From an uncultured Actinomycetes bacterium (GTDB lineage Bacteria > Actinomycetota > Thermoleophilia > RBG-16-64-13): a DNA stretch of 58,898 nucleotides. The stretch lies in assembly GCA_903873715.1 (NCBI GenBank), contig CAIQPS010000087.1:1-58898 (forward strand). The letters run 5' to 3'. Numbering within the stretch: the stretch's first letter is position 1; every line of letters begins with the position of its first letter. The notes below the pieces were generated by a model. The model worked only from the letters and a program-made list of their open reading frames with translations. It was not told where the DNA came from and did no database searches. Below are positions 1 to 44,765 of this stretch, in pieces. The position numbers and the translations under genes were made by a program.

Positions 1-1346
<1,346 letters not shown>

Positions 1347-1360
1347 GGCGCGGCGGCGGT

Positions 1361-2803
1361 CTAGGCTGACTGGACCTGGCCGAACGCCCAGGCGACGCTC
1401 TCGGCCACTACCTCGATGTCGCGCTCGTCGAGGGCGAGCACGTCGAGGTGCAGGCTGTCCTGCGACACGCGGGCGATCAGAGGGATCGGCGCGTGGCGCA
1501 GCGCGTTCTCGAAAGCGACGATAGTGGGAGTGGCGGAAGCTGAGGCCGCGGGCGCCTCGGGAAAGCGGATGCGGACCGCGTGCGACGGCACTTCGGTGAG
1601 CGGCATGGAGCCGCCTCCAGCCCGGGCGCTGGTCTCCTCCACCTCTGTGATGAACCCTCCGGGCGCGCGCCTGTCGATCGCGGCCAGGAGTGCCGCCGCC
1701 AACGGGGCGGTGTCGGCAGGCGTGCGGGACAGAGAGCGGAGCACCGGTATCTCGCGGCGGGCGCGTTCCGGGTCCAGATAGATTCGGAGCGTTGCCTCGA
1801 GGGCCGCCAGGGTCATCTTGTCCAGGCGGAGCGCGCGGGCCACCGGGTGCTTGCGCAGCCGCCCGATGACGGCCTTGCTCCCCACCAGGATCCCGGCCTG
1901 AGGCCCGCCCAGGAGCTTGTCGCCGCTGAAACAGACCACGTCGGCTCCGGCACGCAGAGACGCTGCGACGGTGGGCTCGCCCCGGTACGCGTCGAGCTCG
2001 TTCAGCGCCCCGCTCCCGAGGTCGTCGGCCACGATGACGCCACGCCGGCGGCCCAACTCCACCATCTCGCCCAGGTCGGCCTCCTCGGTGAAGCCCATGA
2101 TCCGGTAGTTGGAGGTGTGGACCCGCAGGATCATCGCGGTGTCGGGCGTGATGGCGGACTCGTAGTCGCCTATCCGGGTGCGGTTGGTGGTGCCGACCTC
2201 CACCAGGCGGACTCCGCCGGCGCGCATGATGTCGGGCAGGCGGAACGAACCGCCGATCTCCACGAGTTGTCCGCGCGACACCAGGACTTCGCGCCCGGGC
2301 GCCAGAGCCATGAGCAGTAGCAGGACCGCGGCGGCGTTGTTGTTGACGGCGAAGGCGGCTTCAGCCCCGGTGAGCCGGGTGAGGAGCGCCTCCAGGTGGG
2401 TCTCGCGGTGGCCGCGGGCGCCCAGTCCGAGGTCGTATTCCAGGTTGCTGTAGGAGCGGGCCACCTTCACGACCTCGTCCACCGCCTGCTCGGCGAGGGG
2501 CGAACGGCCGAGATTGGTATGGATGACCACCCCGGTGAGGTTGAGAAGAGGGCGCAGGCCCGGCGTCTGCCAATCGGCCAGCAGCGAAGCGGCGGCGGCG
2601 AGGAGAGTGCCAGGATCGCCGAGGGCGGATCCAGCGGTGGAATCTTTCAGTATCTCCCGGCGCGCGCCTTCCAGCGCCGCCCTCACGGCCTCCACCACCT
2701 GGGTGCGCGGGTACGCGGCCAGCAAGGAAGCGGCTGCGGCATGGTTCAGCAACTCCTCCACCGCAGGCAGCGCCCGCAGCGCCTGCCGGGCGGACTCGTC
2801 CAT
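1361..2803 (-). CDS. selA: L-seryl-tRNA(Sec) selenium transferase SelA
   Basis: PLP enzyme converting Ser-tRNA(Sec) to Sec-tRNA(Sec) with selenophosphate. About 480 aa, normal for the family. Recognisable stretches are the N-terminal [20 protein letters not shown], the central [15 protein letters not shown], and [16 protein letters not shown], which carries the PLP lysine. ATG 2803 overlaps the stop of the upstream polyprenyl synthase (TGATG); a GTG one codon earlier (2806) is an alternative. The gene is followed by selB. selD and the Sec tRNA gene are not in the window and must be elsewhere. Confidence 0.96.
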
Positions 2804-3825
2804 CACTTCTCCCGCTCCAGGAAGAAGTCGGCCATGGAGGCGAGGACCTCGCGGGCGGGGGTGTCGGGGATGAAATCGAGCGAGAGCCGGGCCTTGACGA
2901 TCAACTCGTGCGCCATCCGCCGGGCGAATCCTATCGAATCGTACTTGTAGAGCAGGTCGACGGCCTCGGCCGCGTCCTCCAGCGTCTTGTCGTGGCCTAG
3001 ATGGAGCAGTTCCACCATGCGGTCCCGGTCGGCGCCCTCGGCCCGCGAAAGGCAGTGGATGACCATGAGCGTCCGCTTGCTCTCCAGGATGTCGCTCAGG
3101 TAGTCCTTGCCCATGGTGTCGACATCGCCGAGGATGTTGAGCAGGTCGTCCTGGATCTGGAAGGCGATGGACGAGTCCCGGCCGAAGTCCTGCAGCGCCT
3201 CGAGCTCGCGCGACGTGGCCCCACCGATGAGCGCGCCGGCTTTCAGCGGCGCGATACCGGAGTAGTAGCCGGTCTTGCCCAGGGCCATGTGCATGTAGTC
3301 ACCGGGAGTGAGGTCGTAGACCTCGTCGCGCACCCAACCGACGTCGAGGGCCTGGCCCTCGACGGTGCGGGCACTCATCTCGCCGATGACGTCCAGCACG
3401 GCGATCTTGGTGGCGTCGTCCAGAGCCGGGTCCCGCACCACGATGGTACAGACCAGCCCCAGGGCGTAGTCGCCGGCGTTGATGGCCAGCGGCTCCCCAT
3501 GCACGATGTGCGCGCACTTCTGGCCGCGGCGCAGGATGCTCGCGTCCATGATGTCGTCGTGGATGAGAGCGGCCGCGTGGAAGAACTCGATGGCGCAGCC
3601 CGCGGACATGGCCTTCATCGGGTCCCCGCCGACGGCCTCGCAGGCCAGCATGGTCATGGCGGGCCGGGCCCGCTTGCCGCCCCGAGCGATGAACTCGTCC
3701 AGGATGTCGTACAGGTACAGCCGGAGGGGGCTGTTACGGGACACCACGTCGAGATAGCCGTGGAGATGCGCGTCGATGTCCGGAGTAGCCCTGAGCAGGT
3801 ACTCCACAAAAAGTTCGCTACCCAT
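2803..3825 (-). CDS. Polyprenyl (geranylgeranyl/heptaprenyl-type) diphosphate synthase
   Basis: Trans-isoprenyl diphosphate synthase of about 340 aa, condensing IPP onto allylic diphosphates to make a carrier lipid or quinone side chain. Seen: GGKRARP near residue 50, the first Asp-rich motif HDDIMD, and the second QDDLLNILGD. The product length cannot be read from sequence. ATG 3825 is preferred over GTG 3846 because TGCTATCGT (3832-3840) ends 6 nt before it, consistent with a leaderless transcript. First gene of a minus-strand operon with selA and selB; its stop overlaps the selA start. The functional link to selenium genes is probably only positional. Confidence 0.9.
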   Translation of the reverse strand: MGSELFVEYLLRATPDIDAHLHGYLDVVSRNSPLRLYLYDILDEFIARGGKRARPAMTMLACEAVGGDPMKAMSAGCAIEFFHAAALIHDDIMDASILRRGQKCAHIVHGEPLAINAGDYALGLVCTIVVRDPALDDATKIAVLDVIGEMSARTVEGQALDVGWVRDEVYDLTPGDYMHMALGKTGYYSGIAPLKAGALIGGATSRELEALQDFGRDSSIAFQIQDDLLNILGDVDTMGKDYLSDILESKRTLMVIHCLSRAEGADRDRMVELLHLGHDKTLEDAAEAVDLLYKYDSIGFARRMAHELIVKARLSLDFIPDTPAREVLASMADFFLEREK

Positions 3826-39459: not shown

Positions 39460-41238
39460 TCAGTGGCCGCTCGATTCCGCGTAACCGCTCCTGCTCAACG
39501 CTGCCGCGTGCCGTTTGAGACGGGCGGAGCGGCGGCGGGCCGCATCGGGATCCTCTTCGTAGACCCCGCTCTTCGGCCGCCACTTGTCCACCGACACCGT
39601 CTTCCCATGCCACATGTCGGTGGTGAGCCATAGCGCCTGCGTCTCGCCGCCGACGACCACCACGTTGATGTTCTCCGGCACGCCGTAGGGCGCGATGAGG
39701 GCATCGTCGGGAAGGTCCAGCCAGGTGGCGAACGGCTGCATTCCACTCCGTGCGAAGGGCTCGACGAGCGAGTAGACCACGTCGGACCCCCAGAACTGCT
39801 TGGCGGTCATCTTGAAGTTCTTCGACAGGTACTCGGACAGCTGGTCCGGATGGTCGAAGCCCTGCTCCTTGATATGTGCGGCCACCAGCGGGTCCATGAC
39901 CATCGTGATCGCTCCCCGCAGGCAGGGGAACGCCTGCATGATGATGAGCATCTCTTCCTGAGCGGGCCGACAGCAGCCGGCGGCGCCCATGCTGTTGATG
40001 GCCGTCCAGCCCTGGAACACGCTGACCGTGCTCTCCTCTTTCTTGAAGCCCTTGCGGACGTGGAACGGCTCCCAGACGCTCCGCTCCTCGTTCTCGGCGA
40101 ACATCATGTTGTTGTAGTTGATGGTGTTGCCGAGCGAGGCCATGAACGTCTCGCCCAAGCGGGAATCGGCCAGGTTGATGGCCATGAGCGTCCACGCCCG
40201 GCCTATGACCGAGTTGGCGTGGTTGAAGGGGCTGAGTGCGCCGAGGCCGGCGTTCATGCCGATCTCTTCGCGGATCGGCCCGTTGACGAACGCCATGCGG
40301 CCGAACGAAGTGGTGGAACTGGGGAGCGCGGGCTCCTCGGTGGCGGCCAAGGCGAGGATCACCGGCAGGTGCTCCGGCCCGGCGCCCGCCATGACGGCGT
40401 TGACGGCCACCTTCTCCACGGTGTACTCGAGCTTCTCCTGGTGCACGGTGATGGTCATCCGGCCTACGACCTCGTTCGGGTCGGCGGCTGTGCCGGTGAG
40501 CATGTGGGCCACCCGCTCCTCGGTGGGGAGCACGATGGGGAGGCCGTCGGTCCAGCCGCTCTCCAGGAACAGCTGGTGCAGGTTCTCCTCTTTGTCGGCG
40601 GCGAGGAGGCGCGGGCGCGGAGCCCCGCGCCGAGCCTGCGGCTCCTTCTCCTCCGGGGTGAGCGGCAGGGTGAGGGCCTCGACGACCTGCTGCATGATCG
40701 GCCTGCCGGTGACCGGGTCGTCCCCTTCGACGTAGCGGCGCAGCACCTCGCGCGGCCGCCCCACGAGCGGGTACGGGGCGTAGGTGAAGCGCAGGCGCAT
40801 CCCGTGGTTGAGCGCGTCGTTCTCCACGACCTCGGCGAAGCGGGAACTGCAGATGGGGGCGGTGGGAACGCCGAACTTGGCTTCGAGCTCTCGAGAGTGT
40901 GCGGCCAGACTGGTCGCGCAGCCGTCTCAGCCACCGACGCCGAAGATCACGGCGTGCGCATCCCTCCTCGCGTCCTCCCACATCTGGGGCTCGTCCATGA
41001 ACATGATGCCCGTCTTGTGCTTGAGCACCGTCTTGACGCTCGGCATGTTGCGCTCGAACCAGGCCACGACCTCTTCGAGGAACTCCCAGCCCCCGCCGAA
41101 GCCGATGTCGATGAGGTGGATGGTCTTGCCTTCCAGAGAGTCCAGCCGCGGGGCCATGGGCAGAGGCTCGATGACGTTGGTGGGTTGCCCTCGCGGATCG
41201 AGGACGGTGACGACAGAACCGGCAGTTTTGAGTGCCAT
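39460..41238 (-). CDS. UGSC-type selenoprotein with long C-terminal domain (in-frame UGA = Sec104)
   Basis: 592-aa protein read through a UGA at 40927-40929; standard gene calling splits it in two. The N-terminal domain (1 to about 165) matches the UGSC family of selenoproteins: TVLDPRGQ, APRLDSLEGKTIHLID, HAVIFGVGG-Sec-DGCATS and a later PICSSRF. Sec104 and Cys107 form a UxxC redox pair (here U-D-G-C, not U-G-S-C). The C-terminal part (about 215-592, from ESGWTDGLPIVLPTEERV) is not recognised by name; it carries an adjacent Cys pair at 422-423. GGAGGT precedes ATG 41238. selA and selB lie in the same window. The reaction is unknown; redox chemistry is inferred. Confidence 0.88.
40892..40929 (-). 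ncRNA. Bacterial SECIS hairpin following the Sec UGA
   Basis: In the mRNA, UGCG (nt 7-10 after UGA) pairs with CGCA, an inner G-C pair flanks single bulges, and CCA pairs with UGG around the loop GUC. The loop starts 17 nt after the UGA with G first, inside the distance (16-37 nt) and loop-G rule known for bacterial SECIS. Derived by eye; folding not computed. Confidence 0.75.
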
Positions 41239-41280: not shown

Positions 41281-41301
41281 ATACTGAATCGAGTTCAGTA
41301 T
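41281..41301. promoter_or_regulatory. Operator palindrome in the selenoprotein/SDR divergent region
   Basis: Perfect inverted repeat ATACTGAA-N5-TTCAGTAT. It lies about 9 nt downstream of the expected start of the leftward transcript, suiting a repressor dimer such as a TetR-type protein. No regulator gene is adjacent. Confidence 0.75.
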
Positions 41302-41396: not shown

Positions 41397-42389
41397 GTGA
41401 AGGACTTCAAAGACAAGGTCCTGTTCGTCACGGGCGGGGGCTCGGGGGCAGGTTTCGGCCAGGCCAAGCTGTTCTCCGAGGCGGGCTGCAAAGTGGTCAT
41501 CGCGGACGTCCGTCAGGATCACCTGGATCAGGCTGTCAAGTACCTCAAGGACAAGGGCGCCCCGGTGCACGGCATCAAGCTGGACATCACCGACCGGGCG
41601 GCCTACGCGGCCGCCGCGGACGAGGTGGAAGCGGTGTTCGGCACCCCGCCGCAACTGCTGTTCAACACCGCCGGGGTCAACACCTTCGGTCCGGCAGAGG
41701 CCTCCACCTACGAGGACTACGACTGGGTCATGGGCGTCTGCCTGGACGGCGTCATCAACGGGATGGTCACTTTCGTGCCCCGCATGATCAAGGCCGGTCT
41801 GGGTGGCTACATCGTCACCACCGCGTCCATGGGCGGATTCTGGGGCGGCCCCATCACCGCGCCGTATTCCGCGGCCAAGGCGGCGGTCATCAACCTCATG
41901 GAGAGCTACCGGGCGTCGCTGGGCAAGTACGGCATCGGGGTGTCGGTGCTGTGCCCGGCATCCATCAACTCCAACATCCACAACGCGGGCGAGACCCGGC
42001 CGGCGCATCTGCAGAAGACCGGCTATCTCATGGACCAGGGCGCCATCGACTCGCTCGAGTTCATCTACAAGTCGGGGCTCGACCCGGTCGACCTGGCCAA
42101 GTGGCTCAAGAAGGGCATAGAGGAAGAGCAACTCTACATCATCCCCTACCCGGAGGAGAAGGCGGCGCTCGAGGCCCACTTCAAGCTGATCGTGGACTCG
42201 GTGCTGCCCGTGGAAGCCGACCCGGTGAACACGCAGCGGCGCGTGGACGCCTGGAAGGCCATGATGGAGATGGCCAAGGAAGCCGCCACCGACCCGGCGA
42301 AGGCCAAAACGGGGTTCGGCAGGGCCAATCCGGAACTCGACTGGGTCAAACCGGCGGTGCCGCGGCCTGCCGTGCCGCCGACGGACTAG
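41397..42389 (+). CDS. Short-chain dehydrogenase/reductase (SDR)
   Basis: About 330 aa, classical-type Rossmann SDR with a longer C-terminus. FVTGGGSGAGFGQAKLFS (TGxxxGxG cofactor loop), then IADVRQD, FNTAGVNTFG (NNAG variant), the catalytic Ser region IVTTASMGGFWGGPI and YSAAKAAVINL with Tyr/Lys. GTG 41397 is selected for AGGAGG five nt upstream. Oxidoreductase on an unknown alcohol or ketone. First gene of the rightward operon sharing a regulatory region with the selenoprotein gene. Confidence 0.9.
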   Translation: MKDFKDKVLFVTGGGSGAGFGQAKLFSEAGCKVVIADVRQDHLDQAVKYLKDKGAPVHGIKLDITDRAAYAAAADEVEAVFGTPPQLLFNTAGVNTFGPAEASTYEDYDWVMGVCLDGVINGMVTFVPRMIKAGLGGYIVTTASMGGFWGGPITAPYSAAKAAVINLMESYRASLGKYGIGVSVLCPASINSNIHNAGETRPAHLQKTGYLMDQGAIDSLEFIYKSGLDPVDLAKWLKKGIEEEQLYIIPYPEEKAALEAHFKLIVDSVLPVEADPVNTQRRVDAWKAMMEMAKEAATDPAKAKTGFGRANPELDWVKPAVPRPAVPPTD

Positions 42390-42414: not shown

Positions 42415-43653
42415 ATGGACGCGCCGGAGGGCGTGAGGACTGCACCAGCGGCCACTACGGTCGCCGCCGAGTCCATGGTCCAGAAGTATCTGGGCCGCAA
42501 GGGCATGGTGGCGTATCTGGGCGCGCTCACGATCTTCCCGTTCCTGTCGACGGACCTCTATCTGCCGGCGCTGCCGGGCATGACCTCGTACTTCGGCGTG
42601 GCGGAGTACCTCACCAACCTCACCCTCATCTCGTTCTTCGTGGTCCTCGCCCTGGCGGCCCTCGTCTGGGGACCCCTGAGCGACCGCTACGGCCGGCGCC
42701 CCGGTCTCCTGGTGGGGCTCACCATGTATGCCGTCGCCGGCGCGCTGTGCGCGGTCTCGTCCGACGTCTACCAGTTGATCGGCTTCCGCATCCTCCAGGC
42801 GCTGGGTGCCGCATCCGCCGGCGGCACCGCGACCGCCATCGTCAAGGACATGTACCACGGCCGCAGGCGCGAGGTGATCATCGCCGCCATCCAATCGATC
42901 ATCGTCCTCTCGCCCGCCATCGCCCCGATGATCGGGGCGCTCATACTCAGGTTCACGTCCTGGCGCGGGACGTTCGCGGCCCAGGCCATCTTCGGGCTGC
43001 TGGCGCTGCTGGGGACCGTGGCCTTCCAGGAGACCATCGCGGAACGGCTCACGGGGCACCCGCTGCGGTCGCTCAAACGGCTGGGAGTGGTGCTGCGCAA
43101 CCGCACGTTCGACTACTACCTCATCAACTTCTCCCTGCTGGGGATCCCGGCCATGGCGTTCGTCGCTTCGTCCTCGTACATCTACGAGGAGACCTTCGGT
43201 GTCTCCAGCCAGGTGTTCAGCTACTTCTTCGCCGTCTACGCCGTGTCTCTGGCGGTCGGGTCGCAGATATACGTGCGGGTGTCGCTCTGGGCCGCACGCG
43301 ACCCCATCATCTGGGGGTGCCTGGCGATCAGCACGGTGAGCGGCGCCCTTCTCCTGTTCCTGGGCCACCTGGGGCCCTGGATATTCATGATCTGCCTCGT
43401 CCCCAGCCAGATGGCGTTCATGTGCATGCGCCCACCGGCCGTCTACCTGATGCTCGCGCAGCACGACCAGGATTCGGGGTCGGTGGCGGCGGTCATGGGC
43501 TCGACCCACACGGTGCTGGCCAGCGCCGGCATGGTCATCGTGTCGCTGAGCCTGTGGGGCCGGGTGGAGATGGTGGGCCTTCTCATGCTCGTCCTGGGAG
43601 TGGCGAGCCTGGCGATGTGGATGTTCCGGCCTCGTAGAGCAAAGGTGTCGTGA
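42415..43653 (+). CDS. Bcr/CflA-type MFS transporter
   Basis: 412 aa with 12 helices and the DHA1 Bcr/CflA pattern: FPFLSTDLYLPALPGM, LVWGPLSDRYGRRPGLLVGL (motif A), and a GFRILQALGAASAGG stretch. Likely moves a small organic compound; direction unknown. It lies 25 nt after the SDR gene and 20 nt before the cupin gene, so the transported compound may be the pathway substrate. Confidence 0.9.
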   Translation: MDAPEGVRTAPAATTVAAESMVQKYLGRKGMVAYLGALTIFPFLSTDLYLPALPGMTSYFGVAEYLTNLTLISFFVVLALAALVWGPLSDRYGRRPGLLVGLTMYAVAGALCAVSSDVYQLIGFRILQALGAASAGGTATAIVKDMYHGRRREVIIAAIQSIIVLSPAIAPMIGALILRFTSWRGTFAAQAIFGLLALLGTVAFQETIAERLTGHPLRSLKRLGVVLRNRTFDYYLINFSLLGIPAMAFVASSSYIYEETFGVSSQVFSYFFAVYAVSLAVGSQIYVRVSLWAARDPIIWGCLAISTVSGALLLFLGHLGPWIFMICLVPSQMAFMCMRPPAVYLMLAQHDQDSGSVAAVMGSTHTVLASAGMVIVSLSLWGRVEMVGLLMLVLGVASLAMWMFRPRRAKVS

Positions 43654-43673
43654 CCTTCAGGAATGGAGAGACC

Positions 43674-44765
43674 ATGAGCGGCGGTAGATACGGCCACAAC
43701 GTCCAACCTCTGCGCCTGCGGACGGAGCTCGTCTACCCGTCCTTCCGCGGCAAGATCTCGGACTTCTCGCTGGTCTACGACCAGGAGGTCCTGCCCGAGG
43801 CGCCGGTCTGGATCGAGACCTACCACGCCTACGCCCCCGGCACCGGGGTCATGGCGCCGAGCGACCTCGCCCCGGTGGTGGACGGGCGGCCGGTGGAGGC
43901 GCTGCGCGATGTGGGCCAGCACTCCCACGACGACTTCGACGAGGTCTACTTCTTCTACGGCACCGACCACACCGACAACACCCGCCTCGGGGGTGAGGTG
44001 GAGATGTGGCTGGGCCACGGGGACGAGGCGGAGAAGTTCGTCTTCAGCGAGCCGACCGCGGTGTACGTGCCCAAGGGGACGGCTCACAACCCCTGGACCA
44101 TCACCAGGATCACCGACGCGGATCGCCCGATCATGATCACCACCATCGCCCTCACCCGGGACTACAGCCTTGAGCCGGGCAGATGCACGCAGTACCCATA
44201 CCCGCCGGCGTTCGCGGCGGCCAAGACCGGCGAGCCGGTGCCGGGCACCGGGAAGTACGCGGGGCTGGTGAACCGCCTCACCCTGTCGCGGGACATCTAC
44301 ATCACCCAGCTGATGGGCCGGGCCTGCGTGCCCGGGCTCCTGTTCGACGACAAGGTCTGCAGGGCACCGGTGTGGGCGGAGTTCTTCTTCGTGTACGCGG
44401 GGGGCACGGGCATCGGGGTGCCGTCGCTCATGGCCGCGACGTCCGGCGATTCCATGTCCTATTGGGACTTCAGACAGGGCATGCAGCACACCCAGGCCTA
44501 CGACGAGGTGTTCCTCTACATCCCCACCCACCCGCACGACACGCTGAGCCTGGGCGGGGAAGCGGTGGAGTACCTGGGCGACGAGGGCCACAGCATGACC
44601 AAGGCCTCGGCGGTCTACGTCCCCAGCACCGTGCCGCACAACCCCAGCTACTTCAAACGGGTCGACCGGCCCTACTACCTCATCGTCTTCGCCATCACCA
44701 ACAACTGGCAGTTCCACGAGGGCGCGTTCCACCCGACGCCGGCGCCGGACACCTTCAAGTTCTGA
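43674..44765 (+). CDS. Bicupin-like protein (two tandem cupin domains)
   Basis: 363 aa, an internal duplication. First copy: QHSHDDFDEVYFFYGTD (His83, His85, Glu90) and VYVPKGTAHNPW (His138). Second: QHTQAYDEVFLYIPTHPHD (His272, Glu278) and VYVPSTVPHNPSY (His322). Each copy also has an LGGE(V/A) turn and a DRP strand. The His/Glu sets suit a metal-dependent dioxygenase or isomerase, but could be structural. GGAGAGACC precedes ATG 43674. A strong hairpin follows. Confidence 0.8.
   Translation: MSGGRYGHNVQPLRLRTELVYPSFRGKISDFSLVYDQEVLPEAPVWIETYHAYAPGTGVMAPSDLAPVVDGRPVEALRDVGQHSHDDFDEVYFFYGTDHTDNTRLGGEVEMWLGHGDEAEKFVFSEPTAVYVPKGTAHNPWTITRITDADRPIMITTIALTRDYSLEPGRCTQYPYPPAFAAAKTGEPVPGTGKYAGLVNRLTLSRDIYITQLMGRACVPGLLFDDKVCRAPVWAEFFFVYAGGTGIGVPSLMAATSGDSMSYWDFRQGMQHTQAYDEVFLYIPTHPHDTLSLGGEAVEYLGDEGHSMTKASAVYVPSTVPHNPSYFKRVDRPYYLIVFAITNNWQFHEGAFHPTPAPDTFKF

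Follow-up and report, generated by a model that had tools for sequence, protein, structure and literature searches.

A fused UGSC-family selenoprotein from an uncultured actinomycete and the probable relation of its Sec domain to GrdB and PrdB

Analysis of 58,898 nucleotides from an uncultured Actinomycetes bacterium (contig CAIQPS010000087.1; this whole stretch is referred to as the window) indicated that two open reading frames on the minus strand (39460..41238) form one selenoprotein gene, in which the UGA at 40927-40929 would almost certainly be decoded as selenocysteine 104 (Sec104). The selenoprotein belongs to UGSC, a known, widespread and uncharacterised family. The standing partnership of UGSC with the C-terminal domain and the probable remote homology of the UGSC domain to the Sec domain of GrdB and PrdB go beyond what the original prediction had found. 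The latter relation suggests a reaction type as well as assays, and a testable reductase hypothesis can now take the place of the earlier thioredoxin-like guess.

Read from 41238 to 39460, with the UGA taken as Sec, the gene encodes a single protein of 592 residues. It starts with an ATG (41238-41236) preceded by a Shine-Dalgarno-like GGGAGGT, passes through the in-frame TGA at codon 104 (40929-40927) and ends with a terminal TGA (39462-39460); without recoding it falls apart into ORFs of 129 aa and 455 aa. The coordinates given in the original prediction were correct, and its landmarks APRLDSLEGKTIHLID, HAVIFGVGG, DGCATS and PICSSRF were all present in that order on the minus strand, where we place the gene. 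The assignment to UGSC was upheld by the one Pfam match, PF24696 (71.9 bits, cut-off 25), which extends over residues 11-171 and so spans the UGA, in agreement with the single run of homology that had been proposed across this codon. The score with the NF041046 (UGSC_fam) equivalog was 54.1 bits, under the curated cut-off of 125. The protein is like the PF24696/NF041046 family in its N-terminal 170 residues, which match over the UGA, in the U-x-x-C at the same place and in the presence of a SECIS; it differs in the fused partner of about 380 residues, in falling under the NF041046 cut-off and in its motif, as the literal U-G-S-C is absent and the U-D-G-C recognised earlier stands in its place (GVGG-U-DGC). 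The U-x-x-C spacing is retained, with Cys107 as the +3 partner of Sec104.

Reading of the UGA as Sec is consistent with its conservation among orthologues and more distant relatives. Five further genomes from the same family have UGA at this codon, four of them with full-length genes of 76-83% identity, and a paralogue in the same genome (contig C47, 221-1894; 49% identical) also carries the UGA, as U-P-G-C. In one genome (G001), fused genes of the U-D-G-C and the U-P-G-C type are separated by about 21 kb on a single contig. UGA in an equivalent homology context was also found in distant phyla, and other homologues have Cys in its place (Neorhizobium GVGHCSTC, Variovorax GACGSC, haloarchaea GDCGSC and alphaproteobacterial CSTC), so that both residues anticipated for position 104 in alignments over the UGA, Sec and Cys, were observed. 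In comparison to the closest homologue, dN/dS was about 0.08 before the UGA (dN 0.067, dS 0.84) and about 0.09 after it (dN 0.123, dS 1.31). Such purifying values on either side of the UGA indicate that translation continues in frame through the downstream half.

A SECIS-like hairpin, GCGACCA-GUC-UGGCCGC, is located at 40901..40917 on the minus strand, with a stem of 7 bp that begins 10 nt past the UGA and an apical GUN loop that begins 16 nt past it. The copy in the window contains a single A.C mismatch (6 of 7 pairs) and is not significant when taken alone, since 7.8% of synonymous shuffles match it; the support for the SECIS is for this reason comparative. Across 14 genes of the UDGC clade the stem was 95.9% paired, compared with 21-64% for slid versions, and double compensatory changes (U-A/G-C and G-C/C-G) were noticed at two stem pairs. 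The SECIS originally proposed downstream of the UGA, for which conservation in related genomes had been set as the test, is thus conserved and covarying within this clade, with the window copy alone being weak. The selenocysteine machinery is complete in the genome: selA, selB, selC and selD were all found. As had been noted earlier, two of these genes are in the window, both on the minus strand, namely selA for selenocysteine synthase (1361..2806; TIGR00474, 545.5 bits, cut-off 267.9) and selB for the Sec elongation factor (3..1346; TIGR00475, 302.9 bits, cut-off 242), the latter with its 3' end lost at the contig end. The tRNA-Sec with anticodon TCA and selD (G000:C128:30662-31585) are outside the window. 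The selD gene contains an in-frame TGA, which suggests that selenophosphate synthetase of this genome is probably a selenoprotein as well. Taken with the conserved UGA and the selection on both sides of it, the covarying hairpin and the sel genes bear out the original selenoprotein call.

The C-terminal partner domain (39577..40596, minus strand; 'WTDGLP...TVEK...NGP...IGRA...AENEE') matched nothing in the Pfam and NCBIfam libraries, in line with its earlier description as an unrecognised fused domain, and it has no fold match in the PDB. A profile search identified the domain at no fewer than 565 loci, distributed over Actinomycetota, Acidobacteriota, Chloroflexota, Bacillota, Spirochaetota, Myxococcota, Pseudomonadota, Rokubacteria and others. 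A UGSC domain was present in 79 of the 80 best-matching loci (of at least 565), mostly fused and in the rest adjacent, with the exception of one locus. Likewise, a C-domain gene was found directly upstream of all ten short actinobacterial UGSC genes selected with PF24696. In G035, a genome of the window's class, the C-domain gene comes after a UGSC gene that contains a UGA; on haloarchaeal plasmids, a UGSC gene with Cys is directly followed by a C-domain gene annotated as 'hypothetical protein', and in one of these loci (L019) a TGA stop at the junction keeps the two genes apart. At nearly every locus examined the two domains are fused or are encoded side by side, in one order or the other, which makes this partnership the rule. 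The C-domain is the standing partner of UGSC and no random extension, and the two very likely act as a single functional unit; any expression experiment with UGSC therefore needs both parts. On two haloarchaeal plasmids (L018 and L019) one UGSC gene is flanked by two different C-domain genes, which suggests a heteromeric form of the partner there.

The conserved residues of the C-domain are P-T, TVEK, V-M-A-G, P-E-x-x-P-V, N-G-P, I-G-R and E-N-E, together with His 393 (68 of 78), and no Cys is universally conserved in this domain among the 78 fused homologues. The adjacent Cys pair pointed out in the original prediction is indeed present at residues 422-423 (39970..39975, minus strand); Cys occupies its two columns in no more than 3 and 2 of the 78 sequences, and the pair was ruled out as the active site for this lack of conservation.

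Fused UGSC proteins were found in at least eight phyla. Among 83 fused genes, taken from the loci that best matched the query profile and hence no random sample of nature, position 104 was occupied by U in 64, by C in 11 and by neither of these in 8; the motifs were USTC (22), UDGC (9), UGSC (6), UPGC (5), UGGC (5), UHGC and others, and Cys107 was retained in 71 of 78 fused homologues. All U-bearing genes contained exactly one in-frame UGA each. In the maximum-likelihood tree the window gene falls into a well-supported clade (100/98) that consists of nine Sec rows and spans five phyla, a pattern suggestive of horizontal spread. The Sec, Cys or other label at position 104 requires eight changes on the tree. 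Residues that replace Sec or Cys in some homologues are Ala, Met, Leu, Asn and Ser. Fused homologues without Sec or Cys were noticed at L008 (genome G002), L023, L053, L070, L084 and L090, and some of them also lack the second Cys (Sporomusa GDMGTS). The loss of Sec or Cys at 104, and in a few members of Cys107 too, indicates that the family is not uniform and that part of it works differently or is inactive; the Sec-free homologues could represent a branch that is possibly non-redox.

The proposal that the fused form may be a new subfamily was not supported by this survey, given its presence in at least eight phyla and its varied motifs. In addition, a fusion of UGSC with a domain termed 'Unknown_1' had been described in the 2008 Global Ocean Sampling (GOS) metagenome report (PMC2398784), so the fused form as such is not new. 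According to that report, UGSC was among the commonest selenoproteins in GOS water, with 255 Sec genes. The GOS fusion resembles the window protein in combining a UGSC selenoprotein with an uncharacterised conserved domain; the GOS report differs from our reading in that it takes the UGSC fold as Trx-like. By sequence, the window gene represents an ordinary clade within a very widespread fused family, with UDGC as one of several variants. Such genes, split by the UGA, are missed by annotation, and an example is the fused U-G-S-C selenoprotein gene of the Acidovorax sp. T1 plasmid p2-T1 (L021, 7929-9464), for which only the short ORF upstream of the UGA was called. This plasmid is a conjugative IncP plasmid, the gene lies near IS1071 and IS91 elements, and at the C-terminal end it passes into a transposase-like frame.

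To describe the fold, we modelled the full-length protein with AlphaFold2 from 78 fused sequences (pLDDT 92.7, pTM 0.91) and the UGSC domain alone (pLDDT 96.7, pTM 0.92). The N-terminal UGSC domain (40639..41214, minus strand) was modelled as a beta-alpha sandwich of helices alternating with strands 39-44, 69-74 and 96-100; Sec104 is placed between strand 96-100 and helix 105-122, at the start of the helix. In the Foldseek search with this domain alone, three GH3 N-acetylglucosaminidases were found just under 1e-3 (5e-4), followed by ornithine carbamoyltransferase, lumazine synthase and WrbA, which are loose alpha/beta relatives; the GH3 matches are read as a shared alpha/beta fold type only. 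Thioredoxin was absent among the 50 listed matches. From the topology of the model and this list, the domain is predicted to be Rossmann/flavodoxin-like and not thioredoxin-like, and a thioredoxin fold was ruled out. The full-length model gave no Foldseek match in the PDB below 1e-3 and so yielded no relative of the C-domain there, and the PDB sequence search with the window protein returned nothing significant.

The relation to the selenoprotein B of glycine/sarcosine/betaine reductase (GrdB, PF07355) and to PrdB of D-proline reductase was examined with HHalign, using profiles of GrdB and PrdB-like genes gathered from Bacillota. The UGSC profile aligned with the GrdB+PrdB Sec domain over 93 columns at a probability of 96.9% and a pairwise E-value of 1.8e-10, which refers to a single comparison and, multiplied by about 25,000 families, still remains near 5e-6. 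Sec was aligned with Sec and Cys with Cys (U-G-T-C on U-x-x-C), and the later segments lE-x-x-G-I-P-T and HP-L/V-G were in register. Each family was also significant separately (94.6-96.0% with GrdB alone and 91.5-95.9% with PrdB alone), and the controls gave 14% for the reversed profile, 0.7% for SDR, 0.4% for the C-domain, 31% for GrdE and 2.4% for the N-terminal part of GrdB. U-P-x-C motifs occur in PrdB paralogues as well. The PF07355 HMM had no match to the window protein at E<=1 and none in its own genome; the link is thus a profile-profile one over about 93 columns. We consider remote homology of the two Sec domains likely with good confidence. The passages on UGSC in recent selenoprotein reviews and in PMC2398784, which cover the literature incompletely, do not mention this relation.

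The shared features are the Sec domain, a helix, the G-I-P-T strand and the HP-L/V-G segment. Unlike GrdB and PrdB, the window protein has no PF07355 match, no N-terminal half of the GrdB type and no pyruvoyl partner GrdE/PrdA; UGSC has a different, unrelated partner domain instead, and it occurs also in aerobic lineages. The HHalign probability of the C-domain with GrdE was 0.1%, which ruled out a GrdE-like pyruvoyl subunit, and the N-terminal half of GrdB was ruled out by HHalign too. No pyruvoyl partner of the GrdE/PrdA type was found, a result based on the comparison of the C-domain with GrdE.

In glycine reductase, GrdB both binds the substrate and releases ammonia, and Sec attacks the polarised carbon; PrdB partners the pyruvoyl subunit PrdA, and for monofluoroacetate, cleavage of the C-F bond by a GrdB-like pair via attack by Sec has been proposed (PMC13188914, PMC9908766, PMC10838667). 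On analogy with these systems, we slightly favour an enzyme of two domains that works reductively, in the manner of GrdB and PrdB, on a small substrate of the carboxylate type. The hairpin just downstream would aid the reading of the UGA as Sec104, which would then act as the nucleophile in a reductive attack on a small carboxylate or carbonyl compound that the C-terminal domain helps to hold. Cys107 could serve as the resolving thiol, closing a selenenyl-sulfide with Sec104 that an external thiol or flavoprotein system would re-reduce. The partner domain would take the place of the pyruvoyl subunit (GrdE/PrdA), a putative role next to its measured difference from GrdE; as the partner is not GrdE-like, the substrate would be held and activated in some other way. 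Among the parts of this proposal, the reductive-cleavage chemistry is tentative and the carboxylate type of substrate rather doubtful. Outside the window, UGSC loci are accompanied by TRAP and tripartite tricarboxylate (TTT) transporters, CoA transferases, CoA ester lyase, HpcH/HpaI-type aldolase and aldehyde dehydrogenases, which point to small organic acids, and FAD oxidoreductases are the neighbours found most often on the same strand (8-9 of 109); the tally is too diverse for naming a substrate. More speculatively still than the cleavage chemistry, UGSC and its partner might constitute a third, pyruvoyl-free branch of Sec-dependent reductive cleavage beside glycine and D-proline reductase, spread over many phyla and haloarchaea, aerobes included, with the partner as a previously undescribed substrate-binding fold.

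Other readings of the gene have to be weighed against the GrdB/PrdB-like reductase. According to the 2008 proposal, UGSC would be a thiol:disulfide (selenol) oxidoreductase of the thioredoxin-like kind, joined to an accessory redox domain, and its U-x-x-C would cycle through a selenenyl-sulfide in reacting with protein or low-molecular disulfides. The U-x-x-C spacing and the replacement of Sec by Cys suit redox cycling; however, the domain was modelled with confidence as a parallel Rossmann/flavodoxin-like sandwich, without thioredoxin among the 50 listed matches, the C-domain lacks a universally conserved Cys, and there are homologues with Ala, Met or Leu at 104, so that we regard this function as unlikely. 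Members that have lost both Sec and Cys would be odd for an obligate redox pair and are more easily understood if the protein catalysed a non-redox reaction of the isomerase, racemase, lyase or thioesterase type, where Sec or Cys acts as a base or covalent nucleophile and Sec only tunes the pKa. The abundance of acid-catabolism genes at the loci and the merely loose alpha/beta sandwiches matched by Foldseek also fit such a reaction. Against it, Sec usually serves in redox or nucleophilic reduction, Cys107 is co-conserved at +3 in 71 of 78 homologues and the profile link is to the reductases GrdB and PrdB; we consider it somewhat less likely again than the thioredoxin-like function.

That the UGA is a true stop, separating two proteins or marking a gene broken by a nonsense mutation, could be argued from the two open ORFs and the imperfect hairpin of the window. 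It is very improbable in view of the UGA being conserved over genera and phyla, the Cys at this site in homologues, the purifying selection on either side, the covarying hairpin and the complete sel machinery.

In the window itself, the neighbours of the selenoprotein gene are a divergent SDR oxidoreductase (41398..42389, plus strand), an MFS transporter, a double-cupin-like protein and a second SDR. The double-cupin-like protein (371 aa, 43650-44765), encoded downstream of the SDR and MFS genes, has no NCBIfam match. A homologue of the divergent SDR follows directly after the fused gene in another genome (G015), which indicates that the linkage to the SDR is conserved. At that locus (L118, 900-9634), two glycyl radical enzymes and their activase directly precede the fused selenoprotein gene, after which comes the SDR; both glycyl radical enzymes are PFL2-like and score under all equivalog cut-offs. 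Between the divergent selenoprotein and SDR genes of the window, the sequence contains a perfect 8-bp inverted repeat, ATACTGAA-TCGAG-TTCAGTAT (41281..41301), a possible operator for a regulator.
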